In this document: positions 32,034 through 49,123 of the stretch, one piece after another
How the letters are laid out: each line of letters opens with the position of its first letter
Position numbering within the stretch: position 1 is the stretch's first letter
Position numbers and translations under genes: made by a program
Notes under the pieces: model-generated
What the model was told of the DNA's origin: nothing
The model's database searches: none
Seen by the model: only the letters and a program-made list of their open reading frames with translations
Origin: Muribaculaceae bacterium
GTDB lineage: Bacteria; Bacteroidota; Bacteroidia; Bacteroidales; Muribaculaceae
Direction: 5' to 3'
Assembly (NCBI GenBank): GCA_022510425.1
Contig: JAFLTO010000002.1
Location: 186,001 to 250,000, forward strand
DNA length: 64,000 nt

Positions 32034-34415
32034 TTATTTCACTGTGAATTTATGTGAACCTATCACATAGATTCCTCTTGGAAGTCCGGCAATGGCTTCC
32101 GTCGATTTCACATTACGTTTCACCAAAAGTCCGTTCATATTATAGACATTCACATATTCCGGAAGGTCAGCGATTATTCCATCAACACCTGCATCCGGAT
32201 CCTCCACATCACTTCCCGGATTGTCATTCCCTTCTGAATAAGCTGAGTCAAGCACCCAAGCATTTAGGCTATTTACCTTGACAGTCCCTCCATCAGAGAA
32301 TACCTCTACTCCATCAGCATCCGAATCTGTTGGATATAGTCTTACTGAAGTGGCATATTTATTGTTTACAAAAACATCCAAAATAGATCCGTCAAGATAC
32401 ACATCAAGTATAAACTCGCTTCCTTTTTCTATCACTTCCGGCAAAGTGGCACTATAACGTCCGTTGAAACTGTTTTGGTCATTTACCTTGCGGTTAAGTT
32501 TTGTGACGTTAATCTCAAGCTTATTATTTACCGGTGTGTAAGTTACCGATGCATATCCCTTGGCACCTTTCAACAGATTGAAACCGAAAGGCACATCACC
32601 CACTGTAAATACACCTCTTACTTCAACTTGTCTTCCGCTCACTTTCTCAATGGTTTTAACTCCATCAAGTGCCAAATTCTCTGTTGAATAACCGGTTCCT
32701 CTTAATTCTTCAAGACCCGAATAAGGTTTCTGAATTAAATTACCCTCTTCATTCAGAGATAATTCTCTGGGGAAGGAATAGAGGTGCGCCCAGCCGAGAT
32801 TACAGTTGTCTATGGTCGGCAGTTTATCCGGTACGATCCCCAGCATAATTGTCTTGCCATCTTTCTGATATATTGTGGGAGAAAGAAGTCCATAACCTTG
32901 ACCATTCACCAATTCAAGGTCAAGTGGTTTTTCCGTTGAAGGTTTGAAGGTTCCGTCTTCATTGATATCTCCTATCCAATAGAGAGTATGCACACCTTTA
33001 GATGTGTTTTGTGGCGTCACTGTAAAAAGCCATTTACCATCTGCAAGTTTTGTTATATTGGGCATTTCCCAGAAAGTACCGTCTTCTTCTTTGGAATTTC
33101 CTGCAAAGAAAATACTTCCATCGTTACTCCACGTCTTTGTTGCCTTATTATATCTGTGAAGCGTTGTGGCACCGATACCATCCTTTGCCGTCCCTACTAT
33201 TATATAAGCATTGTCTCCATTTCTAAAGAAATAAGGATCACGGAAGTCATCTGAAAGTCCCACCGGTTTACCATTGATTATCACGCCCTGCTTTTCCCAG
33301 TCTATCAATGTTTCATCCGTCGGTTTAGCCTGTACAATATAAGCTCGGGCATAATCAACTCCGGTATAGATGATATTTGGCACTCCACCTGTTATCTCTT
33401 CGTCAGTGAATACGGCACCACTCCAGACTCCCTTGTGGTCGTAATCCTCTCCCGGAGCAAGGGCAATTTTTTCTTCAGTCCAATCATAAAGATTTTCACT
33501 TGTTATATGGCCCCAGTGCAACCGGCTCATATATGGTCCGTTGGCATTCTTCTGGAAGAATACATGATATTTCCCGTCGGAATAAGTCATACCATGACTT
33601 TCGTTGGTCCAATTAGCTCCAGGCATTCCGTGATATTTCGGACGTAGAAGATCTTTTTCAAATCTAGACTCCGGAATAGTGAGGTCCGCCATGTTTTCCG
33701 GTGTGGCATTCAACTCTGCTTCTGAAAGCACTCCGTTATAAACGTTTACTTCATCTATAAGCCCGTTGAAAGTCTTTATACCGAAAGGTGAAGTTGATGA
33801 ATCGGCTGTTTTACCAACCGTTAATTTTGAAGATCCATTACCAAGAGGTCCAAGACTTTTCCCTTGTCCCACCTGTTCCCCATTGCGATAAAGCGTGATG
33901 GTTCCCGCTTCAGGATCATTCACGGCAGCAAGGAAACTCCAATCGTAACAAGGAACTTTATCAGAAGCTTCTACAGAAGCCAACCACCCTCCTGCATAGC
34001 AATCGAAGGAATAATTGCCATCCTTGTCAATCGCGAATTCCCAACCGGTCTTTGCACTGTGGTTGATTGTACCGGCGATTGTTATCTTTTCCGTAGAAGG
34101 TTGATCTTCGAGCACTATAGGATAAGTTTCAGGAGCTATCCATAAAGAGAAGGAAGATGCTCCGGTAGGATTGAAATCTGCTACCTCTCCCTCAATAAAA
34201 GTGGAATAACCATCGAATCTAAGGGCATCACCCACCGCACCCGGTATATTTTCAGGACTATGATATCCTCTCACAGTGAGTTTGTTACCACTTATCTCTT
34301 CTGTCACTCTTTTGAAAGAGTCAGTAGTGTTTAAAGAAATATTTGTCACTAAATCCGCAGCAAATAGAGGCGAAGCTGCAATAAATGACATTAGGATAGG
34401 CAAAGTTTTTCTCAT
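32034..34415 (-). CDS. LamG-GH32-like exported enzyme with altered nucleophile motif
   Basis: The 793-residue protein has a signal peptide (ending LFAA, residue 20), a LamG/concanavalin-like module (about 60-235), a five-bladed GH32-type propeller (about 258-560), a GH32 C-terminal beta-sandwich (to about 735) and a tail resembling a type IX sorting domain (VNVYNMNGLLV...LPRGIYVI). The fructosidase motifs RDP (Asp393) and WE (Glu450) are kept, but the usual WMNDPNG reads WTNESHG, with Glu272 in place of the nucleophile Asp. It lies in a fructan-type PUL, so a fructan or related sugar is the likely ligand, but normal hydrolysis is not assured. Confidence 0.8.
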   Translation of the reverse strand: MRKTLPILMSFIAASPLFAADLVTNISLNTTDSFKRVTEEISGNKLTVRGYHSPENIPGAVGDALRFDGYSTFIEGEVADFNPTGASSFSLWIAPETYPIVLEDQPSTEKITIAGTINHSAKTGWEFAIDKDGNYSFDCYAGGWLASVEASDKVPCYDWSFLAAVNDPEAGTITLYRNGEQVGQGKSLGPLGNGSSKLTVGKTADSSTSPFGIKTFNGLIDEVNVYNGVLSEAELNATPENMADLTIPESRFEKDLLRPKYHGMPGANWTNESHGMTYSDGKYHVFFQKNANGPYMSRLHWGHITSENLYDWTEEKIALAPGEDYDHKGVWSGAVFTDEEITGGVPNIIYTGVDYARAYIVQAKPTDETLIDWEKQGVIINGKPVGLSDDFRDPYFFRNGDNAYIIVGTAKDGIGATTLHRYNKATKTWSNDGSIFFAGNSKEEDGTFWEMPNITKLADGKWLFTVTPQNTSKGVHTLYWIGDINEDGTFKPSTEKPLDLELVNGQGYGLLSPTIYQKDGKTIMLGIVPDKLPTIDNCNLGWAHLYSFPRELSLNEEGNLIQKPYSGLEELRGTGYSTENLALDGVKTIEKVSGRQVEVRGVFTVGDVPFGFNLLKGAKGYASVTYTPVNNKLEINVTKLNRKVNDQNSFNGRYSATLPEVIEKGSEFILDVYLDGSILDVFVNNKYATSVRLYPTDSDADGVEVFSDGGTVKVNSLNAWVLDSAYSEGNDNPGSDVEDPDAGVDGIIADLPEYVNVYNMNGLLVKRNVKSTEAIAGLPRGIYVIGSHKFTVK

Positions 34416-34473: not shown

Positions 34474-35961
34474 TTATTGTAGGAATTCAATTATGTTGGA
34501 AGTAAGTTTTTCCACATTTCCTTGATAAGGATTTGCACCGGAGTTCTGATTGAACTCATATGCTGAAAAACCATTAGCAACTACTGTGCCATGTTCGGTA
34601 TTTTTATTGAACACTACGAGTCCTGCAACACAATGGTCACGAACATGACCCCAGGTGGCCAGCACCAATGAATTTGTGACAGTTTCAAAATGAAGGATCA
34701 CATTGTTCATACCGCCATTTCCATAAAGGTTACAATCCCACATTGTGTTATGGTCTTCACGTAAACCGGGTCCTTCCAATGGAATACTTGCATATGGATA
34801 ATCATTTACCTGTTCAAGTGTGATGCCTTGGAAAATAGCGTGATCCGTTCTATCATAGAACTCCTGATCTCCTCCGTCCTTAAAGTCCCATCCAAGGTAT
34901 GGATTGATTGTCCAGATGTCGTCTCCTGTGCCACCTTCCCCACTGCTAAAAATTGTAGGACCCATATCGGCCGGCACAACATTTAGAGGCACTGTAAGCT
35001 GAGTGGCCATCTTGGCGAGGTAAAGATTACCTCCGTTGGCACCAAAGGCTCTAAGGAGATCGAGAGTTTCCTGGGATACTAGGTTGGCAGGAAGGTTTTC
35101 CCATCCGGGCTCGAGACCAATTCGGTCTACCATGATCATAATCATTCCATATTCATCGAAATCTATTTCACCAAGCTCACTTACACTGATGAAATCGCCT
35201 TTGTCTTTATCAACATAATTGTCGCTAAACCATGCAGCAGCAGCCAGTTCGTCATCATCCGGAAGATCGGCCGGGGAGTCTGCAAGAAGTAGGAATCCGG
35301 CTCTAACTTCCATCTCCGGGAGAGCTGTGTTAACAACTACTCCACCGGAATAATAAGACTCATCATAAACCACCTTTGCACGGAACTTTAGATCTACCCC
35401 TGTTTTCTGGCCTGTTAGAGTTCCACCATTAGGATATTCACTGATAGGGAATACCGTGCCTGCGTCTTCACCATCAAGACCTACCCATACTCCGGAAATT
35501 CCGCTAACTGCCGGAAGACTCCATGCGAATGTCACGTTTCTCTTTTCCAGATTTGTCACTGTAAAAGACGTAAGTTCTGCGAGCTGTTCGTAAGGCACTG
35601 TTGCAATTACGGATTGCCCTTCTGAAACATATCCATCTTTATATCTTACTTTCACTGTGTAAAGATATTCATCTTCCATCGGTTGTCCGTAAACTTTATA
35701 AGAAGTTGTTCCGGCGTCAAGGCTGACTTCATTATTGTTGTTCACTTTAACTGTCAATCCTTCTATTTCCAAAGAAGAATTAGGAAGGTTCCATGTTAGT
35801 GTAACCACACGGTTGTCTACCGTAGCAGTGAGATTGGTCACTGTTGGAAGGTTAGGGAGTTCCGGAGCTTCTACCTTGATATCCGTACAGGCTCCAAACC
35901 ATCCCGTCATGGCTATTGCCATGGCTGAAAGACTGTATTTTATATAATTTTTCATATTCAA
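34474..35961 (-). CDS. DUF4960 surface glycan-binding lipoprotein (minus-strand PUL)
   Basis: This is a 495-residue lipoprotein, with Cys25 after a WFGA lipobox-like end. Two fibronectin-like domains (about 38-122 and 128-212) precede a C-terminal DUF4960 domain (about 218-495) with repeated Trp, Tyr and DHNxxWD motifs. As I recall, the same family is the levan-binding protein next to SusCD in the Bacteroides thetaiotaomicron levan locus, so it is the SusE-position glycan-binding protein here. It follows susD by 23 bases and precedes a strong hairpin. It would catch polysaccharide at the cell surface. Confidence 0.82.
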   Translation of the reverse strand: MNMKNYIKYSLSAMAIAMTGWFGACTDIKVEAPELPNLPTVTNLTATVDNRVVTLTWNLPNSSLEIEGLTVKVNNNNEVSLDAGTTSYKVYGQPMEDEYLYTVKVRYKDGYVSEGQSVIATVPYEQLAELTSFTVTNLEKRNVTFAWSLPAVSGISGVWVGLDGEDAGTVFPISEYPNGGTLTGQKTGVDLKFRAKVVYDESYYSGGVVVNTALPEMEVRAGFLLLADSPADLPDDDELAAAAWFSDNYVDKDKGDFISVSELGEIDFDEYGMIMIMVDRIGLEPGWENLPANLVSQETLDLLRAFGANGGNLYLAKMATQLTVPLNVVPADMGPTIFSSGEGGTGDDIWTINPYLGWDFKDGGDQEFYDRTDHAIFQGITLEQVNDYPYASIPLEGPGLREDHNTMWDCNLYGNGGMNNVILHFETVTNSLVLATWGHVRDHCVAGLVVFNKNTEHGTVVANGFSAYEFNQNSGANPYQGNVEKLTSNIIEFLQ

Positions 35962-35984: not shown

Positions 35985-37715
35985 TTAATTGGTGTAAAGA
36001 CCGTTGGAGTTATCCACTTGTGCCAATGGAATCGGGAAATAATAATCATTAGCCTTCAAGGAAGCACCATTATAATATTCTTGGAAATTTGATTCGTATT
36101 GATAATACTGGTTAACAATTTCCTCAGCCTGACCCCAGCGAAGGAGATCGAACCAACGGAGACCTTCGAGAGCAAATTCAAGACGACGTTCATAACGTAC
36201 GGCTTGGCGGGCATTCTGTTGGTTCCATCCTGTCATAGGATATTGAGCCACTTTGTAATCTACAATCGACGGATTGAGGTCGATGGGAGCATAGTTTGGA
36301 TCTATGGAATTGGATGCTCTTTGACGCACCTGATTCACCAAAGTGATGGCACCGTTGAGGTCTTTGTTCTGCTCTATCATTGCTTCCGCTTTCATCAGAA
36401 GGATATCTGAATAACGAATAATCATATAATTGAGAGTGTTGGCACCCCAGGGAACGATACCTACTGTCACTGCAGGATTATCAGGAGAAGGATAAGGTTT
36501 CTTACCGGAGAACTGACCGTAAATGTCATATGCTCTACACCAGTTTTCATTATACATATAAGAACGCCAGTACATGCCTATACGACCGAAAGTAAGATCA
36601 AGACGCGGGTCGGTATTACCTTTGTAAATCGGGAAAGTTTCCTCAACGCCATCAAGACGACCGATTACTTCATTGCCTGTGTAACCATTGAGGTAAGGGA
36701 GCCCGTCGGCATCAGTCCTGAATGCATTGGCAAGGTCTTGAGATCCAAGATAGAAGTCATCGCCGTTGCCATAAAGGTTACCTTCACTCCATGTACAGTT
36801 AAGACAGTTGTTGAAGTTAAACATGTTGGGAGAATTAGCTGATGAGAAGTGTACTGCCATCACTGATTCCACGCCATCATTCATTTGTGGGTCGGAAATT
36901 TGCTGGAATTTGTCGAAAAGGCCATATTTGCCACTGTTAATTACATAGTCGCAATATTGCTCAGCTTCTGCCCATACTTCCTGCACATTGTTGGTGAATT
37001 CTGTAGTGGCTGTGAAAAGATCCACTCTTGCCAATAGGCCGGCTGCCACATATTTGTTGAAACGACCTACCTGCGGTTGAGTTTCCGGCAGCACATCATA
37101 TGCATTACGAAGATCCTGACGGATAAGAGATGCCACTTCCTGGCGAGTCTTGTTTCCGGCCGGCACTTCAGAAGCATTCATTGTTTCGTCGATATATGGG
37201 AATTTTTTGAAAAGACGGAGCATATCGAAATAATAGTAGGCTCTCAGAGTTTTCATCTCAGCGATATAACTTTCTTTGGTAGCTTCATCTATCTGTCCGG
37301 CTCCCGCAATTGTTTGGATTGCTGTGTTGCAACGGCTGATAGAGAAATAGTTGTTGAGCCATTTAAAGTTGATCACTGCATTATCGCTTTGAACGTTACC
37401 TATTTCAAGCTGATGCATATAGCCTTCCATATTCACGTCACCACCACCTTTGAGGGCATCGTCGGAACGGAGATCTATCACCCAATTGTTGATTGGACCG
37501 GCAAATGATTCATTGTTGCCGAAATAGTGGTTCATGAGAGTTGCGTATGCTGAAGTCATGAGGTCCACAGCCTGTTCTTCACCAATCTGGTCGGCGAAAA
37601 GCACTCCCTGAGGTTTAAGGTCGAGCATGTCACCGCAAGATACGGCACCAAATCCCGTGAGGGCAATGGCAATTGCGCCGAAACTCTTGGTTATGTAATT
37701 ATATTTAGATTTCAT
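35985..37715 (-). CDS. SusD/RagB-family nutrient-binding lipoprotein (minus-strand PUL)
   Basis: This is a 576-residue SusD homologue; the lipobox AVSC places the lipidated Cys at residue 27. It has the N-terminal DMLDLKPQG typical of SusD, the TPR-rich helical body (SRCNTAIQTI, MKTLRAYYYFDMLRLF) and the C-terminal SusD signature (ERRLEFALEGLRWFDLLRWG). It forms the lid on the SusC transporter. It lies 31 bases after susC and 23 before the DUF4960 gene. Confidence 0.93.
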   Translation of the reverse strand: MKSKYNYITKSFGAIAIALTGFGAVSCGDMLDLKPQGVLFADQIGEEQAVDLMTSAYATLMNHYFGNNESFAGPINNWVIDLRSDDALKGGGDVNMEGYMHQLEIGNVQSDNAVINFKWLNNYFSISRCNTAIQTIAGAGQIDEATKESYIAEMKTLRAYYYFDMLRLFKKFPYIDETMNASEVPAGNKTRQEVASLIRQDLRNAYDVLPETQPQVGRFNKYVAAGLLARVDLFTATTEFTNNVQEVWAEAEQYCDYVINSGKYGLFDKFQQISDPQMNDGVESVMAVHFSSANSPNMFNFNNCLNCTWSEGNLYGNGDDFYLGSQDLANAFRTDADGLPYLNGYTGNEVIGRLDGVEETFPIYKGNTDPRLDLTFGRIGMYWRSYMYNENWCRAYDIYGQFSGKKPYPSPDNPAVTVGIVPWGANTLNYMIIRYSDILLMKAEAMIEQNKDLNGAITLVNQVRQRASNSIDPNYAPIDLNPSIVDYKVAQYPMTGWNQQNARQAVRYERRLEFALEGLRWFDLLRWGQAEEIVNQYYQYESNFQEYYNGASLKANDYYFPIPLAQVDNSNGLYTN

Positions 37716-37746: not shown

Positions 37747-40700
37747 TTAGAATGTCACGTTAAGACCAAGTGTGAAAGAACGCGGACGCGGATATGAACC
37801 ACTGTCGAAAATCTGTCCCCAGTTACCGGGCAGAAGTTCCGGATCAAGGCCTTTATATTTTGTAGCTGTAAATACATTTTCCACCTGGAAGAACACATTC
37901 ATACTCTGGGCCCATTTTTCAAGACACTTGTTAGGCAAAGCATAAGAGAGCTTAAGGTATTTCATTTTGAAATAGCTGCCGTTTTCTACAGCCCAAGAAG
38001 AGAATCTTGTCTGGTTGTTGTTGTCAACAGTTCTTAGGAGTGGTATATCTGTATTTCTGTTATCAGGGGTCCAGGCTTTGTCAAGAAGATCTGCAGCTCT
38101 GTTGCTCAAGCCATTGTTTGTGCTCATAAGATAAAGGATTCTCTTCATATCATTATAGATATCTTGACCGAAGTCACCGGCGAAGAACATGTCAAGAGTA
38201 AAACCTTTGTAACGGAATGCGAGGTTAAGACCCAAGGAAAGGTCCGGATTCGGGTCACCGATGATGCAACGGTCGTCATCATTTATCACACCGTTCCCGT
38301 CGAGATCACGGAATTTGAGTAGACCTACGCCGGCACCAGGTTGAGTTGCATGATTGGCCACTTCCTGTTCATTCTGGAAGATACCGTCACATACATAACC
38401 CCAATATACACCCATAGGTTGTCCCGGTATCAATCGTATGTCACCACCGAGGAAATTGTCAGACTTGTTCAGGTAGAGAAGTTTGTTCTTATATTGAGAA
38501 AGGTTGATATTGGCAGTCCAGGAGAAATCGTTGTAGATCGGAGAAGTGTATCCGAAGGTCAATTCCCAACCGATGTTTCTCATAGAACCCGTATTCATCC
38601 ACATAGTTGCGCTTTCACCGGCTACGTTAAGCACCGGAGGAGTAGTAAGCATGTCGCGAGTTTTCTTGATGAAGAAGTCACCGGAAAGGTTGATTGAGCC
38701 ACCGAGGAATGAAAGGTCAACACCTATATTGTTTTGAGTTGTTGTTTCCCAAGTAAGGTCCGGATTACCTGTATATGCCTTAGTGATACCGGCTGTGGAA
38801 CCGTTGCCTGAACCGGCCATGTCGTAAGAACCATTGGCTGTACCATAATTGTAAGTAGTGAATGCCGGGTAAAGGTCAGGAATGTTGGCGTTACCATTCT
38901 GTCCCCATGAATATCTCACTTTAAAATCGGCAAGAACATCATTTTCGGGGAACCAAGGTTCAGCACTTGGACGCCATGCTAAAGAGAATGCAGGGAATGT
39001 GCCGCCTTTATGTCCTTTGGCGAAGCGTGAGTTTTCATCATGACGGATTGTGAATGATGCTAAGTAACGGTCGTCGAAATTATAGTCTACCTTACCGAAT
39101 ACCGAGAACACACTCCAGGCACTCTTGCCGCCGCCTGCTGCCCATACTGTAGTTCCTGCACCCACCTGCATGAATTGTTCATCCTGTGAAATGTATCCCT
39201 GACGGGTAGCATCCATGGTCTTGTTGGTGTATTGTATGAATTCAGTACCTAAAAGGGCGGTGAGATGGTGAACATCTTTGAATGTCTTGTTATAGTTTGC
39301 GGTATTTGACCATGTCCAGGTGTCTCCCTGTCCATATGCATTGGAAGCATAGGTCTGGTCATTTTCGTTCATGGTGCGTGTAAGGTCACGGCTAAAGAAC
39401 TGAACATGTTCTATACCGAGGTTAGTCTTCAAGGTGAGCCCTTCAATAGGATGAACTTCCAAGAACGCATTTCCGAAAATACGCCAAGAAGTGCTATTGT
39501 CGTCACGGTCATTGTCGAGCATCCACAACGGATTCTGGTAGTCAACACCGACAAGAGTCATAGGGTTAGCCCATCTTCCGTCAAGACCTTTTACAGGAAG
39601 AGCAGGAAGCATTTCAAGAGCGAGGACACCGGCACCTCTGTCACCACCCATACCCGGAACACGGTCTTTCCAGTAAGATACCATAAGGTTTTCCCCTATG
39701 GTGATGTATTTGTTGAAATCAAAACGTGAGTTTACACGTGCAGAATATCTTTTATAATCTGTGTTCTTAACGTTACCTTGCTGGTCGATAAGGTTCATGG
39801 AGAAGAGCACGGAGCTTTTTTCAGTGTTGTTAGTGACTGTTGCAGTGAGGTTGTTGGTCCATGCGGTTCTGTAAATTTCATCTTGCCAATTGGTGTTAGC
39901 AACCGGGAAGTTAGGTTCACCGTTCACATATTGTTGCAATTGTGGAGTTGCACCATAGCCATAGATGCTGCCGAGACGGTCGTTGCCCGGAGGTGTAAGA
40001 CCTGAATTGCTTTGGGCAAGCCACCATGCGCGGCCCCAACTTTCTGTATCCAGAAGATTATACTTTCTGGCGATAGTCTGTGCAGATACAGAATAATTCA
40101 AAGAAACATTCAGACGGTCGCCTTTACCATGTTTGGTTGTAATAATAACTACACCGTTAGCCGCACGTGAACCGTAGATAGAAGCGGAAGCGGCATCCTT
40201 CAATACCTGGAGGGTTTCGATATCGCTCGGGTTGATACCGTTCAAACCTTCAGATGTTGGCACGCCATCTATAATATAAAGTGGATCATTGCTTGAATTG
40301 GCGGTTGACATACCACGAACCCTTATTGAACCACCACCACCCGGCTTGGTGTCAGGCACAATGTTAACGCCGGGAAGTTTCCCTGCCATTGAGTTCAATA
40401 CGTTACCGGTGTTCTGACTCATAGGTTCCTTCATATCCATCACTGATACAGCACCGGTCAAGTCAGCCTTACGGATCGTTTGATAACCGATCACCACCAC
40501 TTCATCCAAAAGTTCGGAATCCTCGTCCATGTAAATCATCATTTGCGGCTCTGCTTTGAGCACCTGAGTCTGGAATCCGATATATGAAACTGTTAATGTG
40601 GCACCCTCCGGCACCATTAATGTAAACATACCGTCGATGTCTGTGGCTGTACCCTTATGGGTTTCCTCACACATCACGGTAGCCCCGATCAGGGGTTCAT

Positions 40701-40803
40701 CGTCGGCTCGCGACACCACCGTTCCTTGAACGGTGATATCCTGAGCTTGCGCCCACAGTCCTGTCATGACTGCTAAAGCTACGCTTAGGATCGATTTTTT
40801 CAT
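37747..40803 (-). CDS. SusC/RagA-family TonB-dependent transporter (minus-strand PUL)
   Basis: The 1018-residue outer-membrane transporter has a signal peptide ending AQAQ (residue 21), a carboxypeptidase-regulatory-like domain (about 22-105), the DEVVVIGY TonB-box region, the plug (GSRAANGVVIITT) and a 22-strand barrel ending LGLNVTF. It imports oligosaccharides with the adjacent SusD. It is transcribed divergently from the regulator at 40988 and shares an intergenic region with it. It resembles the plus-strand SusC in layout, but the barrels have diverged well beyond a recent copy. Confidence 0.93.
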   Translation of the reverse strand: MKKSILSVALAVMTGLWAQAQDITVQGTVVSRADDEPLIGATVMCEETHKGTATDIDGMFTLMVPEGATLTVSYIGFQTQVLKAEPQMMIYMDEDSELLDEVVVIGYQTIRKADLTGAVSVMDMKEPMSQNTGNVLNSMAGKLPGVNIVPDTKPGGGGSIRVRGMSTANSSNDPLYIIDGVPTSEGLNGINPSDIETLQVLKDAASASIYGSRAANGVVIITTKHGKGDRLNVSLNYSVSAQTIARKYNLLDTESWGRAWWLAQSNSGLTPPGNDRLGSIYGYGATPQLQQYVNGEPNFPVANTNWQDEIYRTAWTNNLTATVTNNTEKSSVLFSMNLIDQQGNVKNTDYKRYSARVNSRFDFNKYITIGENLMVSYWKDRVPGMGGDRGAGVLALEMLPALPVKGLDGRWANPMTLVGVDYQNPLWMLDNDRDDNSTSWRIFGNAFLEVHPIEGLTLKTNLGIEHVQFFSRDLTRTMNENDQTYASNAYGQGDTWTWSNTANYNKTFKDVHHLTALLGTEFIQYTNKTMDATRQGYISQDEQFMQVGAGTTVWAAGGGKSAWSVFSVFGKVDYNFDDRYLASFTIRHDENSRFAKGHKGGTFPAFSLAWRPSAEPWFPENDVLADFKVRYSWGQNGNANIPDLYPAFTTYNYGTANGSYDMAGSGNGSTAGITKAYTGNPDLTWETTTQNNIGVDLSFLGGSINLSGDFFIKKTRDMLTTPPVLNVAGESATMWMNTGSMRNIGWELTFGYTSPIYNDFSWTANINLSQYKNKLLYLNKSDNFLGGDIRLIPGQPMGVYWGYVCDGIFQNEQEVANHATQPGAGVGLLKFRDLDGNGVINDDDRCIIGDPNPDLSLGLNLAFRYKGFTLDMFFAGDFGQDIYNDMKRILYLMSTNNGLSNRAADLLDKAWTPDNRNTDIPLLRTVDNNNQTRFSSWAVENGSYFKMKYLKLSYALPNKCLEKWAQSMNVFFQVENVFTATKYKGLDPELLPGNWGQIFDSGSYPRPRSFTLGLNVTF

Positions 40804-40862: not shown

Positions 40863-40900
40863 GATTTATAACTTATGTTGATAAGAATATAAGAAATGTG
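40863..40900. promoter_or_regulatory. Putative regulator site in front of the minus-strand susC
   Basis: ATAACTTATGTTG (40868-40880) and ATAAGAAATGTG (40889-40900) are direct repeats starting 21 bases apart. The first is close to half of the palindrome in front of the other susC (ATAACAAATGTTG). A 21-base period places both on the same face of DNA, as AraC-type proteins use. The site is upstream of the -7 box of susC. Confidence 0.5.
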
Positions 40901-40936
40901 CATGTAGGATTTTTTATGCTTTTTGTCGCGATTTTT

Positions 40937-40966
40937 ATTGTTAATTCATCAATATCAGTAAATTTG
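40937..40966 (+). promoter_or_regulatory. Promoter of the PUL regulator
   Basis: TTG (40938-40940) and TAAATTTG (40959-40966) have an 18-base spacing. It places transcription start about 15 bases before the ATG at 40988 and rules out the in-frame start at 40898. Confidence 0.6.
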
Positions 40967-40987: not shown

Positions 40988-42496
40988 ATGAAACGGTTGT
41001 TATCTATCGCATTTGTTATATTAGCCATAATAATGGCTTCCTGTGGGGATAAAAATGAGCCTAAATTCCGTATCGGCGTGTCACAATGCAGTTCTGATGA
41101 ATGGCGGGATAAAATGAATCACGAAATGCGTAGAGAGATGCTTTTCCATGATGATTCTATAATGGAAATTATTTCAGCCGACGACAATAATGAAAAACAG
41201 ATCGCTGATATCCAAAGTTTCATCGACCGAGGATTCGACCTTATTATAGTGGCTCCTAACGAAGCTAAAGCTCTGACACCAATTGTAAAAAAAGCTTATG
41301 ATGCAGGTATTCCGATTATTATTTTCGACCGCCGGATTACTGATGACTCCTACACCTCTTATATAGATCTTGATAATAAAGGAATAGGTTACGCAGCAGC
41401 ACAATATGCCAGCTCTTTGTTCCCACCTAATTCTGTATCTAAAGTTTTGGAAATAACAGGACTGGCGGGTTCCACACCAGCTCAGGAACGACATGGAGGG
41501 TTTATGGAAGGCATAGACTCTTTCTCAAATTTAAAATTGGCAGCAAGCGTTGATGGGGCTTGGGACAGGGAAAAAGCTTATGTGCTTACCGATTCTTTAT
41601 TGAGACTGTATCCGGATATCAAGTTGATTTATGCTCATTCTGATAATATGGCAATTGGCGTGTCTGATCTTTTAAAAGAAAAGGGCAGACAAGATATCAA
41701 GATTTTAGGAACCGATGCCTCGCCCGGACAAGGCATAGAGGCTGTCAGAGATGGCATTATTGATGCCACTTTTATTTATCCCACAGAAGGGCACAGGATT
41801 ATTAAAACAGCTTTTGCTATTCTCGAAGGTGAGCCATTTGAAAAAGTTGTTTACATTCCTTCTTTGTCTTCTGTCGACAAGTCTAATGCTGAAATTTTAT
41901 TACGCCAAGTCGAACTATTGAAAGATGCAACCAACAAAGTGCTCCTTCTTGATGAAATCAACGATCAGCAGGAAACACGTTATAAAAATCTCACACGATT
42001 CTCCAATACTATTTTAGTCTTGGCTATTGTCTTGGCCCTGATTCTTTTCCTCTTTATTCTCCTTCTGATAAGAAACAGAAAACTTCAAAAAGAACTTGAG
42101 GAGCAAAATAAAACTTTAATAGAGGAACGCGACCGTCAGTTAAAGCTTTACCACCAACTTGATGAAGTTTTGGTTAAAGAAGATGATTTTTACAGCCGAT
42201 TTATCAATATAATTAAAACGCAATTTGCCGACACCTCTATGTCGACAGATACTATTGCTCAGCAACTTAGTTTAGGACCTGCACAACTCACAAGAAAAAT
42301 AAAATCGCTAACTCATTTCACACCTGTAGAAATTCTTAGAAACTACAGGCTCGAACAAGCCCGACAATTATTGCTATCCTCCGACAAAACTATTAATGAA
42401 ATTACATCTGAAGTCGGTTTTTCTTCCCCTGCATATCTAACTAAATGTTTCCGTGAACACTTTGGCATGACTCCAACCGACCTCAGAAACTCCTGA
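40988..42496 (+). CDS. Transmembrane one-component regulator: sugar-binding protein fused to AraC-type HTH
   Basis: The 502-residue protein starts with a signal-like helix ending MASC (Cys19, possibly a lipobox). Residues 27-320 are a periplasmic-binding-protein fold of the ribose/LacI type (FRIGVSQCSSDEW, DLIIVAPNEA, GIPIIIFDRR, YAHSDNMAIG, ILGTDASPGQG). One membrane helix (339-361) and a coiled coil (362-395) lead to an AraC-type DNA-binding domain (405-500: STDTIAQQLSLGPAQLTRKI...EVGFSSPAYLTKCFREHFG). There is no histidine kinase or receiver, unlike the hybrid two-component sensors that control most PULs, including the fructose-sensing one of the B. thetaiotaomicron levan locus. It likely senses a fructan-derived sugar and controls both flanking PULs. 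The ATG at 40988 is set by its promoter. Confidence 0.88.
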   Translation: MKRLLSIAFVILAIIMASCGDKNEPKFRIGVSQCSSDEWRDKMNHEMRREMLFHDDSIMEIISADDNNEKQIADIQSFIDRGFDLIIVAPNEAKALTPIVKKAYDAGIPIIIFDRRITDDSYTSYIDLDNKGIGYAAAQYASSLFPPNSVSKVLEITGLAGSTPAQERHGGFMEGIDSFSNLKLAASVDGAWDREKAYVLTDSLLRLYPDIKLIYAHSDNMAIGVSDLLKEKGRQDIKILGTDASPGQGIEAVRDGIIDATFIYPTEGHRIIKTAFAILEGEPFEKVVYIPSLSSVDKSNAEILLRQVELLKDATNKVLLLDEINDQQETRYKNLTRFSNTILVLAIVLALILFLFILLLIRNRKLQKELEEQNKTLIEERDRQLKLYHQLDEVLVKEDDFYSRFINIIKTQFADTSMSTDTIAQQLSLGPAQLTRKIKSLTHFTPVEILRNYRLEQARQLLLSSDKTINEITSEVGFSSPAYLTKCFREHFGMTPTDLRNS

Positions 42497-42560: not shown

Positions 42561-42592
42561 GATATAACAAATGTTGCAACATTTGTTATATC
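42561..42592. promoter_or_regulatory. Perfect 32-bp palindrome, putative regulator operator
   Basis: GATATAACAAATGTTG (42561-42576) is followed at once by its exact reverse complement (42577-42592). The 7-mer TGTTGCA occurs at 42572 and again at 42593, 21 bases on, and TGTCGCA at 42600. A third degenerate half-site, CAACAAATATTATATC, is at 42623-42638 (13 of 16 bases match the right half). All lie upstream of the plus-strand susC. No T-run follows, so it is not a terminator. Confidence 0.6.
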
Positions 42593-42657
42593 TGTTGCAT
42601 GTCGCATTTTTTATATCTCTTTCAACAAATATTATATCTAACCTTTTATTTATGGGC

Positions 42658-42665
42658 TAATTTCG
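42658..42665 (+). promoter_or_regulatory. Probable -7 box of the plus-strand susC
   Basis: TAATTTCG has one mismatch to TAnnTTTG, 32 bases before the start codon. A weak match fits a promoter that needs an activator. Confidence 0.45.
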
Positions 42666-42697: not shown

Positions 42698-45600
42698 ATG
42701 AAAAAATCAATTTTTAGCTTGTTGGTTCTCCTTATGGCTACCTTGACAATGAGGGCCGAAGACATCCTTGTCGAAGGCACCGTTGTTTCGGCTGAAGATG
42801 GGGAACCCCTAATCGGAGCGACCATCTTGTCGCTCGAAACAAAGAAAGGAACCGCCACTGATATCGACGGTAATTTCCAGATTCAGGTTCCGGCTAACAG
42901 TAAAATCAAAGTATCTTATATCGGGTACAAGGATTTCGAAGGAGTAGTTTCCCCTCACATGGAAATAACTCTACATGAAAATTCCGAAGTGCTTGATGAG
43001 GTTGTGGTTGTCGGTTACTCTACTCAAAGAAAAGCTGACCTCACCGGTTCGGTATCTGTGGTTAATACCAAAGATTTTGAAACTGCATCTACCACCGACC
43101 CAATGCAGGCACTCCAAGGTAAAGTGCCGGGTATGACCATTACTCCAAACAACGGTGGTTCTCCTGTTTCTGCAGGAACAGTCAGAATCCGCGGTATTGG
43201 TTCTTTCAATGCCGACCAATCTCCTCTATTCGTAATAGACGGTGTGCCTACGACAACCAACCTCAACACTCTTAATATGAACGATATCGAGAGTATGCAG
43301 GTGTTGAAGGATGCCGCATCAGCCTCAATCTACGGTTCACGTGCTGCCAATGGTGTGATCATCATCACTACTAAGCAAGGTAAGAAAGGAGGCGACAGCA
43401 AAATTAAAGTTGACTTCTCAGCAAGCTGGACTGCTCAATTTTACACCAAATCCCAAAAAATGAGTCTTCTTGACACTCCGGGATATGCAACTGCTATGGC
43501 ACAGGCTGCCCTTAACGATGGTATGGATCCGGTGGCTTATGCTGCAAACTACGGATTGAACCTCAATGCTTCAGCCGGTATTCCTATCTCTGTCTACAAT
43601 CCTTTGACCGGACAATATGTGGGATATACTGTTAATGGTCTATATGACGGTTATATTAACTCACGCCGGACTATGCGTTGCAGCAATACTGACTGGCTCG
43701 ATGAAATCACTCGTACAGGTTTTCTTCAGAGCTACGACCTCTCCTTGTCAAGAGCAAGTGAAAACAGCCGTTCTCTCTTTTCAGTGGGATACAAGAAAAA
43801 TGCGGGTATTATCAAGGATACCGATTTCCAAAGTCTTGCAGTACGTATGAACAACGCATATGATATCTTCAAATGGCTTACAGTAGGTGAAAACGCTACG
43901 GTGACTTATTCAAACCAGGTGGACTGCGCGCCGATGGAAAATGCCCTCAAGATGTCTCCTACAGTTCCGGTATATGAAGAAGACGGTGTAACTTTTGGTG
44001 GTCCTGTAGGTGGCATGAGCGACCGTCAGAATCCTATGCGTGAAATAGCATTCAATAAAGACAACCGCCTCAAGATTTGGCGTATATTCGGTAACGGGTA
44101 TATCGATATCAAACCTTTCAAGGGTTTCACTTTCCGTTCAAACTTCGGTCTTGACTATGAAGCCGGTTTCATTCACAGCTACAATTATACATTCCATAGC
44201 GATATCGTAAACAACGACACAAATTCTACCACTCTTTCTCAATCAAACGATACTAAATGGACTTGGACAAATACCATCAACTATGATTTCAATATCAAAG
44301 AACAAAATGAATTCCATGTTCTCGCTGGTATAGAATTCTTCCGTCAGACCTATGTTGGCTTCTCCGGTGTAAACCAAGGTTTCGATATCGAAACTCCTGA
44401 ATACATGTGGCCCGATGCTTCAACCGGTCTTGAATATTCTACTGGTAACGAATCTAAATATTCTCTTCTCTCTTTCTTCGGCAAGATCGATTATAGCTGG
44501 AGAAACCTTATACTCGCTTCTTTCACTATCCGTCGTGACGGTTCTTCAAGATTCGGACGTAATTACAAATACGGTACTTTCCCCGCAGCAACTCTCGGTT
44601 ATCGTCTTAGCGAAAACATTGATAAACCTTGGCTCAACGATCTTAAGATCCGTGCATCTTGGGGTAAGACGGGTAACCAGGCCATTGCCAACAATGCTTA
44701 CCAGGCTCTTTACGTTGCAGACTATGGCAGTGACCGGGTCACTTCTACCGCTTATGATATTTTCTTGCAACAATCAGGCATCTTCCCTTCAGGTTATCGT
44801 GCCATTCAATCTGAAAACCCGAATTTGAAGTGGGAATCCACAATCCAATGGAACTTAGGTGTTGACTATGGTTTCCTAAATAACCGTCTCACAGGTTCTG
44901 TCGACGCTTATATCAAGGATGTGAAAGACATGCTTATCAACCCGGCTTATCTTGCTGCAATGGGTGAAGGCGGTGCAGCTTGGGCAAATGGTCCTTCTTT
45001 GAGAAACTGGGGTATGGAATTCCTCGTGGGTTGGAAAGATTATGTTGAATCTTGCGGTCTCTCCTATAGCATTCAATGGAACGGGGACTTCTTCCGCAAC
45101 CGTGTCACCTATCTTCCTTCTTCCACTACCGGCTCTTACGTACACACAACTTCTCAAAACTTGGTTGAGGCACGCAAACCTTATGGTTCAATAGTTGGAT
45201 ATGTTGTAGATGGTCTTTTCCAAAACAAAGAGGAAGTGCTCGCTTCCGGTCAAGACAATGCACGTGTGGGTGGTCTTAAATATGTCGACCTGAACGGTGA
45301 TGGAAGAATCAATGCGGATGACCAGACTTGGATATACAGTCCGGTGCCCGATTTCAGCATGGGTCTTAACGTTAATCTTTCATGGAACAACTTTGATTTC
45401 CAAATGTTCTGGCAAGGAGTATTCGGTCAGGATGTCTATAACAACCAGAAATTCCAGACCGACTTCTGGAGTATTACAGATGCCGGTTCAAACAAGGGTG
45501 ACCGTTTGCTTAATGCATGGACTCCTGCCAACACTTCTTCCTTAATACCGGCTCTTACCACCAATAATACTGCTGACGAAGGCAGGGCTTCAACCTACTA

Positions 45601-45826
45601 TGTAGAAAACGGTTCTTACTTCAAACTCCGTACTCTCCAGTTAGGTTATAATCTTCCGGAAAAGATTCTTGGTAAAACTGCAATCTCTAGTGTTAGATTC
45701 TATGTTTCCGGAAACAATATCTGCACTATTAAGAGCAAATCTCTTACTTGTTCTGATCCTGAAAACCCCAACTGGGCTTATCCTTTGTCAACATCAGTTT
45801 CCTTCGGTGTGCAGCTCGGTTTCTAA
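42698..45826 (+). CDS. SusC/RagA-family TonB-dependent transporter (plus-strand PUL)
   Basis: The 1042-residue transporter has a signal peptide ending MRAE, a carboxypeptidase-regulatory-like domain (about 22-105), the DEVVVVGY TonB-box region, a plug with GSRAANGVIIITT and a barrel ending VSFGVQLGF. It would import fructan oligosaccharides with the adjacent SusD. It is the first gene of a four-gene operon that mirrors the minus-strand PUL. The promoter region holds a 32-bp palindrome. Confidence 0.93.
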   Translation: MKKSIFSLLVLLMATLTMRAEDILVEGTVVSAEDGEPLIGATILSLETKKGTATDIDGNFQIQVPANSKIKVSYIGYKDFEGVVSPHMEITLHENSEVLDEVVVVGYSTQRKADLTGSVSVVNTKDFETASTTDPMQALQGKVPGMTITPNNGGSPVSAGTVRIRGIGSFNADQSPLFVIDGVPTTTNLNTLNMNDIESMQVLKDAASASIYGSRAANGVIIITTKQGKKGGDSKIKVDFSASWTAQFYTKSQKMSLLDTPGYATAMAQAALNDGMDPVAYAANYGLNLNASAGIPISVYNPLTGQYVGYTVNGLYDGYINSRRTMRCSNTDWLDEITRTGFLQSYDLSLSRASENSRSLFSVGYKKNAGIIKDTDFQSLAVRMNNAYDIFKWLTVGENATVTYSNQVDCAPMENALKMSPTVPVYEEDGVTFGGPVGGMSDRQNPMREIAFNKDNRLKIWRIFGNGYIDIKPFKGFTFRSNFGLDYEAGFIHSYNYTFHSDIVNNDTNSTTLSQSNDTKWTWTNTINYDFNIKEQNEFHVLAGIEFFRQTYVGFSGVNQGFDIETPEYMWPDASTGLEYSTGNESKYSLLSFFGKIDYSWRNLILASFTIRRDGSSRFGRNYKYGTFPAATLGYRLSENIDKPWLNDLKIRASWGKTGNQAIANNAYQALYVADYGSDRVTSTAYDIFLQQSGIFPSGYRAIQSENPNLKWESTIQWNLGVDYGFLNNRLTGSVDAYIKDVKDMLINPAYLAAMGEGGAAWANGPSLRNWGMEFLVGWKDYVESCGLSYSIQWNGDFFRNRVTYLPSSTTGSYVHTTSQNLVEARKPYGSIVGYVVDGLFQNKEEVLASGQDNARVGGLKYVDLNGDGRINADDQTWIYSPVPDFSMGLNVNLSWNNFDFQMFWQGVFGQDVYNNQKFQTDFWSITDAGSNKGDRLLNAWTPANTSSLIPALTTNNTADEGRASTYYVENGSYFKLRTLQLGYNLPEKILGKTAISSVRFYVSGNNICTIKSKSLTCSDPENPNWAYPLSTSVSFGVQLGF

Positions 45827-45859: not shown

Positions 45860-47596
45860 ATGAAACTCAAGAATATACTTGGATTATCAATGATGGCGAT
45901 ACTCGCCACTTCATGCAATGATTTTATCGACATGACCCCAACTGGAGTAATCGACGGAGACTATGTTTACTCTCAACCAGAAGAAATGGTGACAGCGGCT
46001 TACGCAATGTTGGGTGACTGTTGGTATACATATCCTTTCAACCTCATGCCTTACGGTGATTTCTCTTCCGACGACTGCTATAAAGGTGGTTCCGGCACTA
46101 CCGACACAGGTTATCATCCAATGGAAATCTGGAGCACTTTGACATCCACACCGGGAGAACTCGATGAACTCTGGTATCGTCTGTTTTGTGCGATTTCCCG
46201 TTGCAACCGTGCATTGGTATCCCTCGACCAATATGGTGAAAGCGTCCTCGGTGCTGAAACTGCTGAAAGAAGAAAAGCTGAGGTACATTTCCTCAGAGGC
46301 CACTTCTATTATAAACTTCTCACTATGTTCCGTAAAATTCCATGGGTAGATGAAGAAATTTTCGCTAATCAGCTCGAAGAGTCTACAAGAAATGATGAGT
46401 TTACCTATGAAGAACTTTTCAACAAAGTGATAAATGAATTCCTGATTGCCTACAATGGTCTACAAAACACAAGTGTTGACGGTGGAGGAAGAACCAACAA
46501 GATCGCGGCTGCCGCTTACCTTGCAAAATGTTACCTCACTCTCGCTTGGGGCGACGGTTATGAAGCTACCAACGGTGTGAACCATATTAACCAGGCTTAC
46601 ATGCAGAAGGTGATCGAATACACCTCCGATGTCATGAACTCACAATATGGTTATCTTGAAGATTTCGGAGACATTTTCCTTCCCGAATACAAGAATTCAA
46701 AGGAGTCAATATTTGCTGTGCAGACTTCTGACAGAAGCGAAGACAACACTCAGTTCGGTCGTGCTAACTGGAGCAATATGCTCAATGGTTGTTGGGGTAT
46801 GTGGAGCTGCGGTTGGGATTTCCATAAGCCATCCCAGAATCTTGTAAATGCTTTCAAGACAGAAGGCGGCCTCCCGATGTTTGACCATTATAACGACAAT
46901 ATCTCTTATCCGGTGAAAGGTGTGGCTTCAGCACAGAAATATGATCCTCGTCTATTCCACACTGTCGGTATGCCTTCCTGGCCTTACAAGTATGAAGAGG
47001 AATTTACTATGACAAAAGATAATTCCCGCACTCCCAATACTTATGGATACTATACTTCTCTAAAGGATGTTCCACAACGTTCTCATGGTGAAACATATGA
47101 TGGAAGTTGGCAGGCTTTTGCAATGAATGATTATGTGATCCGCTACACTGATGTGATGCTTATGCGTGCAGAGGCTCTCGTGGAAACAGGAGCTCTTTCT
47201 GAAGCTCTCAATATCATTAACGATATCAGAAAACGTGCACAAAATTCTATCGACAAGCATATCCCTTACGCAAAGGATTATTGTGAAATAGCTCAATATC
47301 CTATTGGGTATTTCGCAAGCAAGGAAATTGGCAGACAATGTGTTCAATGGGAACGTCGTCTTGAAATGGCTATGGAAAACGACCGTTTCTTCTCTCTCCG
47401 CAGATGGGGTATTGCTTCTCAAACTCTCAACGGTTATTTCGAAAAGGAACAGACTGTTTCTTATGAAGGTCAAAGTTATGCTGAGTATCTTAGAGACGCT
47501 CACTTCACAGCCGGAAAGAACGAGTTCTATCCTGTGCCTTACAACCAGCTTTATTATGTGCCGGGTCTTTACTCCCAAAACGAAGGTTACAATTAA
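45860..47596 (+). CDS. SusD/RagB-family nutrient-binding lipoprotein (plus-strand PUL)
   Basis: The 578-residue SusD homologue has the lipobox ATSC (lipidated Cys19) and FIDMTPTGV at the mature N-terminus. The helical body (RRKAEVHFLRGHFYYKLL) and C-terminal signature (WERRLEMAMENDRFFSLRRWG) are intact. It starts 33 bases after susC. Partner of the preceding transporter and lid over its pore. Confidence 0.93.
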   Translation: MKLKNILGLSMMAILATSCNDFIDMTPTGVIDGDYVYSQPEEMVTAAYAMLGDCWYTYPFNLMPYGDFSSDDCYKGGSGTTDTGYHPMEIWSTLTSTPGELDELWYRLFCAISRCNRALVSLDQYGESVLGAETAERRKAEVHFLRGHFYYKLLTMFRKIPWVDEEIFANQLEESTRNDEFTYEELFNKVINEFLIAYNGLQNTSVDGGGRTNKIAAAAYLAKCYLTLAWGDGYEATNGVNHINQAYMQKVIEYTSDVMNSQYGYLEDFGDIFLPEYKNSKESIFAVQTSDRSEDNTQFGRANWSNMLNGCWGMWSCGWDFHKPSQNLVNAFKTEGGLPMFDHYNDNISYPVKGVASAQKYDPRLFHTVGMPSWPYKYEEEFTMTKDNSRTPNTYGYYTSLKDVPQRSHGETYDGSWQAFAMNDYVIRYTDVMLMRAEALVETGALSEALNIINDIRKRAQNSIDKHIPYAKDYCEIAQYPIGYFASKEIGRQCVQWERRLEMAMENDRFFSLRRWGIASQTLNGYFEKEQTVSYEGQSYAEYLRDAHFTAGKNEFYPVPYNQLYYVPGLYSQNEGYN

Positions 47597-47620: not shown

Positions 47621-49123
47621 ATGAAAACTTCAAAATATATACTTTATCCGTTGGCAGCTTTGCTTTTCACAGCATGCCAGGACAAAAATATAGAGGTGGT
47701 AGATCCTATTCTATCTCCCGTAGAGGCTACAAGTATCAACGGCCAATTAATTGGAGACGATTATGTGTGGACTTGGCCGCAACTCGGCGAAAAGAGCATG
47801 CAGGTTCAAGTGAAAAACGATAACATCTTGATTTCCACTGAAGTCGTGAAGGGTACAAGTTACACTCATTCTCAGATTGAAACCAATATTCCATACACCT
47901 ATATCTTCAAAGTGACCGATGGACAAAATTATTCAAAGGGTGTGGTGCTTTACTATACTCGACCGGGAGCATCCAGAATTTCCGGTGTGACTATGGCACA
48001 GGTTGACAATCCTGATGGCTCATACGACGCTGTTGTTTCTTGGAATCCGGCTTCAGACGCAGACAACATCCTGCTCACCGCAACATCAGGGGATCGAAAG
48101 GTTACGGAAACTTTGGCTGCAACAACAGCTGAATACAGAATTTCAAATGTGAAAGACGGCGAAGAATGGAATGTTACGTTGACTGCTAAAAATGCCAATG
48201 GCGCTTCATTGCCATCTACATCATCCCTCTTGATTGGAAAGACAGCTATAGGTTTCCTCAGTGTTTATCCAACTCCTGAAGAACTCATTGCTAACGGTGA
48301 TGATGACGAGGCTTGTGCCTGGTTATGGCTTCAGTCTGAATATCCTTCATCAAAATATATCTATTTCGGTGATATCAATTCAGCAGAAGATCTTGATCCT
48401 TACAGAGTATTGTTCTGGTTAAGAGACCTTGAGGATGTGGGTGAAGATGTAGTATTTACTATGCCTGAAGTTGTGGAAGCTGCCACTCCGTCAATCAAAG
48501 AATGGTACACCAACGGTGGTAGTCTCTTGCTTTGGAGCCATGCAACTGTTTACGTGGGTGCGATTGGCCGCTTGGATATGGAATTACTGAAAAACAACGA
48601 CAGAAGCATAGGTGCCGGTATAGGTGGCTGGAATGGAGACACTTGGGCTATGGCAGTGGAACTTCATCCCGGTAGTAACTTTAAAAAGGATGCTTCTTCT
48701 CATCCTATTTTCCGCGGTCTCGATTATGAAACCACCGACCGTACAAAACTCATCAAGTTCAAAGGCCCGGGGTGGACTGAAGACCACAACTGTCTCTTCT
48801 TTAATCTTCCTTCCGTGCTCACGGGAATCGGGAATCAAGAGGAAGCATGCTACAATGAAATCGTGAACACCTATGGTATAATTCCTTTGGGTACTTGGGA
48901 TTCACAGATTGATTGGGTATCACAGCTTAATGTTTGGGAAGCACAACAAGGCAACACTGAGTTCAAGGGGACTATACTTTGCATAGGCAACGGGGGGTGT
49001 GAGTTCTCAATGAAGAATGAGGACGGCTCTAAGGATATCTCCGCTTATCCAAAGAATAACATCTATCAGTCTAATGTTCTCACTTTGGCCAAGAATTCTC
49101 TCGAATATCTAAAAACCAGGTAA
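47621..49123 (+). CDS. DUF4960 surface glycan-binding lipoprotein (plus-strand PUL)
   Basis: The 500-residue lipoprotein has lipobox FTAC (Cys19), fibronectin-like domains (about 30-110 and 115-205) and a C-terminal DUF4960 domain (about 208-500) with several Trp and the GPGWTEDHN motif that matches GPGLREDHN in the minus-strand counterpart. It is the SusE-position glycan-binding protein and points to a fructan such as levan as the substrate. It starts 24 bases after susD; a strong hairpin follows before the GH32 gene. Confidence 0.82.
   Translation: MKTSKYILYPLAALLFTACQDKNIEVVDPILSPVEATSINGQLIGDDYVWTWPQLGEKSMQVQVKNDNILISTEVVKGTSYTHSQIETNIPYTYIFKVTDGQNYSKGVVLYYTRPGASRISGVTMAQVDNPDGSYDAVVSWNPASDADNILLTATSGDRKVTETLAATTAEYRISNVKDGEEWNVTLTAKNANGASLPSTSSLLIGKTAIGFLSVYPTPEELIANGDDDEACAWLWLQSEYPSSKYIYFGDINSAEDLDPYRVLFWLRDLEDVGEDVVFTMPEVVEAATPSIKEWYTNGGSLLLWSHATVYVGAIGRLDMELLKNNDRSIGAGIGGWNGDTWAMAVELHPGSNFKKDASSHPIFRGLDYETTDRTKLIKFKGPGWTEDHNCLFFNLPSVLTGIGNQEEACYNEIVNTYGIIPLGTWDSQIDWVSQLNVWEAQQGNTEFKGTILCIGNGGCEFSMKNEDGSKDISAYPKNNIYQSNVLTLAKNSLEYLKTR

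Follow-up and report, generated by a model that had tools for sequence, protein, structure and literature searches.

The window analysed here, a stretch of 64,000 nucleotides of DNA from a Muribaculaceae bacterium (genome G000), carries two SusC-SusD-DUF4960-GH32 loci, one running leftward and one rightward, with the gene of a compact regulator between them. The leftward locus, on the minus strand, comprises genes for SusC (37747..40803), SusD (35985..37715), a DUF4960 protein (34474..35961) and a GH32 protein with a laminin-G-like domain (32034..34415), and at its end lies a 979-aa protein with a pectinesterase domain (28971-31910, minus strand). The rightward locus, on the plus strand, has SusC (42698..45826), SusD (45860..47596), a DUF4960 protein (47621..49123) and GH32 (49193..50710). 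The two sets of four were assigned by Pfam and bear out the fructan PUL setting proposed in an earlier note on this DNA, made from the sequence without database searches; judged by gene content, "fructan PUL" is a fair label for both loci. Pfam scans of 25 window ORFs revealed no neighbouring kinase or receiver gene; in all, the window has 89 frames of 100 aa or more, and many of these overlap.

The regulator gene (40988..42496, plus strand, as are all the parts given below) encodes a protein of 502 aa in which a sensor is followed by a membrane helix, a short coil and an AraC-type HTH, an arrangement that the earlier note had read from the letters and that the ORF and Pfam results confirm. 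The signal sequence extends to Cys19 (40988..41044) in a lipobox-like M-A-S-C. The sugar-binding sensor (aa 25-325; 41060..41962) gave a Peripla_BP_4 match at residues 35-282 (E 1.8e-47), and the membrane helix (aa 343-361; 42014..42070; Kyte-Doolittle mean 3.67 over 19 residues) is the most hydrophobic 19-residue segment from sensor to HTH. A linker (aa 362-398; 42071..42181) then leads to the DNA-binding domain (aa 399-502; 42182..42493), which was delimited by Pfam and by alignment with hybrid two-component systems (HTCSs). Its HTH_18 match at residues 423-501 (E 1.3e-22) scores 80.3 bits against a curated cut-off of 33.6, which makes it an AraC/XylS-family DNA-binding domain. The 37 residues between helix and DNA-binding domain come close to the spacing of about 45 residues, after a helix at 339-361, that had been put forward earlier. 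The further claim that a phosphorelay has no room here also held up, in that Pfam detected no HisKA, HATPase_c or Response_reg at E<=0.001 and again at E<=0.01; the more permissive scan added only a sub-cut-off match to DUF6377 (323-430, E 0.001).

By sequence, the nearest solved structure to the sensor is 2x7x ("sensor protein", E 1.4e-78), which we take to be the periplasmic part of BT1754. The homology to 2x7x is as expected of a fructose sensor of the BT1754 kind, fructose binding being only predicted. Residues R115, R168, D219 and D243 are invariant across the 14 uncut compact forms described below, which fits a retained sugar site, but the N of an N-D motif is replaced by S218 in the window protein and its orthologue in G372. 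Homology thus suggests fructose or a close sugar as the ligand. Among the HTCSs of B. thetaiotaomicron, BT1754 is described as the only one whose sensor belongs to COG1879 (PMC3878776) and as sensing fructose (PMC5061871, PMC11501099). The two proteins, which we compared only through 2x7x, are alike in their 2x7x-like sensor, in spanning the membrane, in their AraC-type HTH and in belonging to a fructan locus, but BT1754, as an HTCS, has a kinase and a receiver ahead of its HTH and the window protein has neither. We also observed that all 14 compact forms, as well as the nine aligned HTCSs, carry the signal-sequence cysteine; membrane regulators bearing this sensor may carry an additional N-terminal lipid anchor.

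Relationship to full-length HTCSs

HTCSs are taken to signal by phosphorelay. They are given as among the commonest regulators of glycan loci in Bacteroides (PMC11501099). The compact regulator has the sensor and helix of an HTCS on its N-terminal side and the AraC-type HTH at its C-terminus, and it is missing the histidine kinase (HisKA plus HATPase_c) and the CheY-like receiver. When the window protein and its two orthologues are aligned with nine HTCSs, all three show a single clean gap, at which the coil preceding DHp leads directly to the beginning of the AraC domain. The alignment partner of the linker is the HTCS coil that leads into the DHp helix of the kinase, and the putative excision junction falls at about aa 393-399 (42164..42184), where some 400 residues of kinase and receiver are absent relative to the HTCSs. 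In two sister full-length HTCSs, the distance from the FFTNVSHD motif to the HTH is 410 and 416 residues.

Phylogenetic analyses gave a consistent picture. In a sensor tree of 58 rows the window protein was grouped with its counterparts in G372 and G302 (100/100), within a clade of Muribaculaceae HTCSs (100/100), and the neighbours of this group were the HTCSs of two genomes of the same genus, G287 and G228 (98/94). The same two HTCSs were again neighbours of the window protein (SH-aLRT 96) in an HTH-only tree, a quick tree of 67 rows and only 110 columns and hence weak. DUF4960 genes adjoin both sister HTCSs, and GH32 also adjoins that of G287. Because the sensor and HTH trees agree on these HTCS neighbours, both ends of the protein most likely derive from one HTCS. 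If, instead, a sugar-binding sensor had been joined to an unrelated AraC regulator, the final domain layout would be identical, but with neighbours shared between the two trees and a linker that aligns with the HTCS coil, we consider such a fusion very improbable. The compact regulator is best read as a fructan-locus HTCS minus a kinase-receiver core of about 400 residues; this apparent descent, and the recurrence of the same shortening elsewhere, had escaped the earlier note. A complete HTCS is also encoded in the window's own genome, on contig C5: it is 910 aa long, and Pfam matched Peripla_BP_4, HisKA, HATPase_c, Response_reg and HTH_18 in it. The window protein and this HTCS are 45% identical across query residues 6-412, 46% identical in the HTH and 52% identical in the sensor. 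A separate observation from the sensor tree is that an HTCS of G806 (L067/L091, family f59) is nested in the Muribaculaceae clade, suggesting gene transfer between families.

Could the shortened gene simply be decaying? Intact orthologues of about equal size were found in two other Muribaculaceae genomes, G372 (88% identity) and G302 (65%). Between G000 and G372 dN/dS was 0.042 overall and 0.010 in the HTH, which is the best-conserved part of the protein; the values are rough, as dS was high (1.66), and in comparisons with G302 dS was saturated in nearly all cases. The gene thus appears to be kept by purifying selection, intact in three species. Given the intact orthologues and the selection, we rejected a pseudogene and an assembly artefact as readings; with such orthologues an assembly accident is unlikely. 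A functionless HTCS remnant on its way to loss has some precedent, since a second compact copy in G533 with an in-frame stop and an HTH-only fragment in G734 indicate that decay occurs in the family. Nevertheless, intact frames at these identities, a low dN/dS even at high dS, conserved operator sites and the recurrence of the layout in other families leave the remnant reading strongly disfavoured, the least probable of those we considered. From its sequence, the compact regulator is real, conserved and most likely functional.

Recurrence of compact and reduced forms

Genome surveys in Bacteroidota, akin to the domain-architecture search that the earlier note had envisaged, yielded 14 uncut sensor-helix-HTH_18 forms. 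Peripla_BP_4 and HTH_18 were matched in 14 of 14, HisKA, HATPase_c or Response_reg in none (Pfam, E<=0.01), and a hydrophobic segment lies between sensor and HTH in every one. Linker length varies between 30 and 92 residues, and the G533, G776 and G632 linkers are rich in proline and, on visual inspection, unlike a coil. SusC is present at 12 of the 14 loci, GH32 at nine, and either or both at 13, the sole exception being that of G734 (counts from BLAST against the window's own PUL proteins, over the window or up to 21.5 kb per locus). Genomes with a compact form were counted in surveys that overlap: at least 3 of 397 genomes in the family survey (three candidates scored per genome, among the matches listed), 3 of 111 in the genus survey (at E<=1e-100, which distant forms would escape), 7 of 71 in family f29 (one truncated at a contig end), at least 6 of 393 in the order survey and at least 2 of 395 in the phylum survey (three candidates scored per genome in each of the last two).

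Several shorter frames were considered as compact forms and rejected. Those of G422 (561 aa) and G413 (629 aa) are HTCSs truncated at a contig end, that of G397 (557 aa) belongs to an HTCS interrupted by a frame change, and a 316-aa sensor frame in G115 stops near the end of its contig. The order and phylum surveys also gave frames of 310-407 aa with the sensor alone. The G863 protein is truncated at a contig end just past the junction and was excluded from the 14. Of six frames of 624-713 aa (L156 and L158 to L162), the four run through Pfam (L156, L158, L161 and L162) proved to be SpoIIE or kinase proteins: the same sensor precedes a SpoIIE phosphatase domain in L156 (G745) and L158 (G477), and is borne by plain sensor kinases in L161 and L162.

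To what extent are the compact forms related to one another? Our searches gave 113 distinct sensor rows, 79 of which are at least 880 aa long, all 79 with kinase and receiver matches. A quick tree of 86 rows (20 HTCS rows and 7 short or cut rows omitted), 15 of them compact including G863, needs 8 changes for the character "compact", 7 of them forced by starred branches. The careful tree of 58 rows, from which a further 28 had been removed, including the compact G665, G856 and G1054 (long branches) and G863 (cut), has 11 compact rows and needs 5 changes, all forced. A single compact clade was rejected on the sensor tree (p-AU 3.2e-7, 11 rows), as were a union of the Muribaculaceae and g214 compact forms (p 0.0003) and a union of the five compact forms in the G776/G632/G533/G871/G872 branch (p 2e-49), and the HTH alone likewise rejected a single compact clade (p 0.008); these p-values are weakened because the groups were named after a first tree. 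Related bacteria thus appear to have made the same HTCS shortening independently several times.

Forms that are only partly reduced were also found. In G745, two proteins (L155:1022-3229, 736 aa, and L157:1239-3437, 733 aa) have HisKA, a receiver and the HTH without HATPase_c, and in the sensor tree they are sisters of the compact forms in the G776/G632/G533/G871/G872 branch. They have the look of half-way forms, in whatever order the domains may have been lost, and would be either kinase-dead or phosphorylated by another kinase. Two fragments deserve mention in their own right. The second compact copy in G533 (L154:3926-5482), with its in-frame stop between sensor and HTH, adjoins SusC/SusD and GH32. 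In G734, a 156-aa frame (L163:8700-9167) has the HTH end found in that genome's compact regulator, about 17 kb off, with neither sensor nor helix, and lies just upstream of another SusC; it is perhaps a remnant of duplication or recombination.

Whether a compact form needs a full-length HTCS can be judged from the company that it keeps. In 10 of the 15 genomes with a compact form (G000 and 14 searched genomes, 6 of the 14 less than 90% complete) the matches listed (E to about 4e-17) include no full-length HTCS that has this sensor, and six of these ten are at least 90% complete (G734, G863, G856, G871, G665 and G1054; a further sensor frame in G856 is 679 aa long). The compact form can therefore probably act alone. 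In the other five, G000, G372, G302, G776 and G632, both a compact form and a full HTCS of the same kind are present, and there the compact form may have an auxiliary role. The compact protein might, for instance, pair with the C5 HTCS by way of the similar sensor and coil, as an auxiliary or dominant-negative partner that modulates or inhibits the HTCS or binds at the same sites, an idea in keeping with this co-occurrence, with sensors that are 52% identical and with an inherited coil. Against it are the ten genomes in which no such partner was listed, the absence of the candidate operator near the C5 HTCS and the strong conservation of the HTH between G000 and G372, and we regard a partner role as unlikely, albeit the least unlikely of the alternatives.

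Candidate operators and a model for signalling

If the compact regulator acts on the flanking loci, where might it bind? A candidate operator (TGCATGTmGsATTTTTTAT) occurs before the regulator gene (40899..40917, plus strand), within the intergenic region that separates this gene from the divergent left susC, and before the right susC (42596..42614, plus strand). Since the pattern was derived from these two sites, both were bound to be recovered; what counts as evidence is that the pattern is conserved and that it is absent from other places. With up to three mismatches, the two sites are the only ones in the window, although 3 of 100 shuffles of the window also gave two. With up to two mismatches allowed, a slightly looser pattern matched the 2.93-Mb assembly at just two positions, one on either side of the regulator gene; at the same stringency a reversed control pattern had no match in the assembly, and no site was found near the C5 HTCS. 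The sites are kept in G372 and partly in G302, in which the second PUL is inverted. At the loci of the other compact lineages no confident match was found at up to two mismatches (L149, L154 and L166, the last being the locus of a reduced form, gave single, chance-like ones), so that the operator claim is limited to the Muribaculaceae lineage.

Promoter elements were called as TAnnTTyG boxes, after the -7 box consensus of promoters. A -7-like box of the regulator gene (TAAATTTG; 40959..40966, plus strand) begins 60 nt past the operator start and that of the right susC (TAATTTCG; 42658..42665, plus strand) 62 nt past it. The distance is 60-63 nt in five of six promoters and 50 nt in the sixth; a TAnnTTyG box is also found upstream of the operator site in three of the six promoter stretches. 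As the left site matches the right one in orientation and distance (to the regulator gene and susC, respectively), the regulator is likely to activate its own gene. That it also controls the divergent left susC is speculative; a -7-like box for this susC is present in G000 and G372, with none in the G302 stretch examined. Scans for other signals gave 7 sigma-70 sites, against 6.9 in shuffles, and 6 terminator-like sites, against 1.3, all of them within the coding frame. The right promoter also has three 20-nt direct repeats (42574..42639, plus strand), which start at 42574, 42599 and 42620, at spacings of 25 and 21 nt. The second of them overlaps the candidate operator, and the first is overlapped by a perfect 32-bp palindrome (42561..42592). 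A repeat finder detected two direct repeats and an imperfect palindrome in the right promoter of G372, and no repeat pair near a spacing of 21-25 nt in the left promoters of the three species. The palindrome is 88% kept in G372 and could bind something other than the compact regulator.

We propose, with a probability of roughly two in three, that the compact regulator is a one-component transmembrane activator of fructan use that arose from an HTCS by in-frame loss of the kinase (DHp and ATPase) and receiver, and a one-component membrane regulator, as had been suggested earlier, is indeed the best reading of the sequence. The parts that the sequence supports are the layout, the absence of a detectable kinase or receiver, the descent, purifying selection, the GH32/SusCD context and the conserved candidate operator. 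In the proposed sequence of events, binding of periplasmic fructose, or of a closely similar sugar, would close the sensor, whose motion would be passed by the membrane helix and the inherited coil directly to a dimer of AraC domains, with no phosphate involved. The dimer would then bind the candidate operator, which lies some 60 nt before the -7 box, and recruit polymerase to the regulator's own gene, to the right-hand susC and perhaps to the divergent left susC. Coiled-coil dimerisation, as originally suggested, is plausible in the window's lineage, in which the linker aligns with the HTCS coil, but is not general: with proline-rich linkers and lengths of 30-92 residues, the compact forms cannot all depend on a rigid coil. 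It may be enough that the geometry of the dimer is fixed on the outer side of the membrane. The idea that PUL DNA is held at the membrane fits the layout, although this would not be special to the compact form, as the nine aligned HTCSs have a helix and the same C-terminal HTH.

The variable linkers also bear on regulated proteolysis, in which the ligand would trigger cleavage near the membrane and the AraC domain would be freed into the cytoplasm. Linkers of 30-92 residues, some of them unstructured-looking, would be compatible with release of the domain no less than with tethering. However, the linker of the window protein continues the HTCS coil and is not a loop, HTCSs are described as single membrane-spanning polypeptides (PMC3878776), and the only peptidase among the 25 Pfam-scanned ORFs of the window is a Peptidase_M3 (17094-19199), more than 20 kb off, although the last of these is a weak point. 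We judge release by cleavage to be improbable, somewhat more so than the partner role, and favour an AraC domain that stays tethered. A broader and more tentative proposal, to which we would give slightly less than even odds, is that the phosphorelay of sugar-sensing HTCSs is dispensable: closure of the binding domain would gate the AraC dimer through one helix, and HTCSs of fructan loci would have been stripped down repeatedly, partly via ATPase-less forms.

How does this protein compare with known membrane-held regulators? ToxR and CadC, which the earlier note took as models, have an N-terminal cytoplasmic winged HTH and a C-terminal periplasmic part. The likeness to them stands for the way of working, a DNA-binding domain held at the membrane without a phosphorelay, but not for family membership, as the window protein has its sensor at the N-terminus and an HTH_18 domain, another HTH class, at the C-terminus, which reverses the order. 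SusR of B. thetaiotaomicron is closer in general plan, being described as a membrane-spanning activator that senses on the periplasmic side and binds DNA on the cytoplasmic side, as the window protein would do; the DNA-binding domain of SusR is, however, said to have no significant similarity to other known ones (PMC3878776), and by this description the AraC-type domain of the window protein sets it apart. A survey of 50,302 transmembrane transcription regulators (TTRs) reports that Bacteroidota are rich in them, that most are not hybrids with two-component domains, and that TTRs may have evolved from two-component systems, naming gonococcal Rsp (PMC10269533). Like TTRs, the compact regulator has a membrane helix and a DNA-binding domain on one polypeptide and, as in the non-hybrid ones, no two-component core domain, so we infer that it acts on transcription from the membrane. 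Rsp of Neisseria gonorrhoeae is similar in that the membrane receptor part of a two-component pair is fused to the DNA-binding part, but it involves other families and is a single case. The searched text of that survey contains no mention of AraC, HTH_18 or periplasmic binding and describes neither this layout nor descent from HTCSs (PMC10269533), and our literature search, largely of papers available without subscription, found no description of a kinase-less HTCS or of such a layout. Membrane-held one-component regulators are thus already known, and their origin from two-component systems has been suggested before; what is new is the apparent repeated collapse of an HTCS family into a one-component form, with partly reduced relatives.

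Repeated loss of the kinase core is of more interest than the single gene in the window, and, if true, would mean that, within one family, two-component signalling has repeatedly been turned into one-component signalling in nature. Natural relatives without a relay allow a direct test of whether the signal requires the relay to cross the membrane or whether the relay only tunes the response; if it is not required, small sensor-helix-HTH proteins would be simple, swappable sugar sensors. Five regulators with a propeller (Reg_prop) sensor (L170, L171, L172, L173 and L175; a sixth locus from the propeller search, L174, is of another kind) resemble the compact forms in having an AraC-type HTH without kinase or receiver, and differ in having a propeller, the sensor usual among HTCSs, rather than a sugar-binding protein and in their length of 811-885 aa. 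All five have HTH_18 and no kinase or receiver by Pfam and, by eye, a hydrophobic segment ahead of the HTH, so that the design extends more widely than fructan loci.
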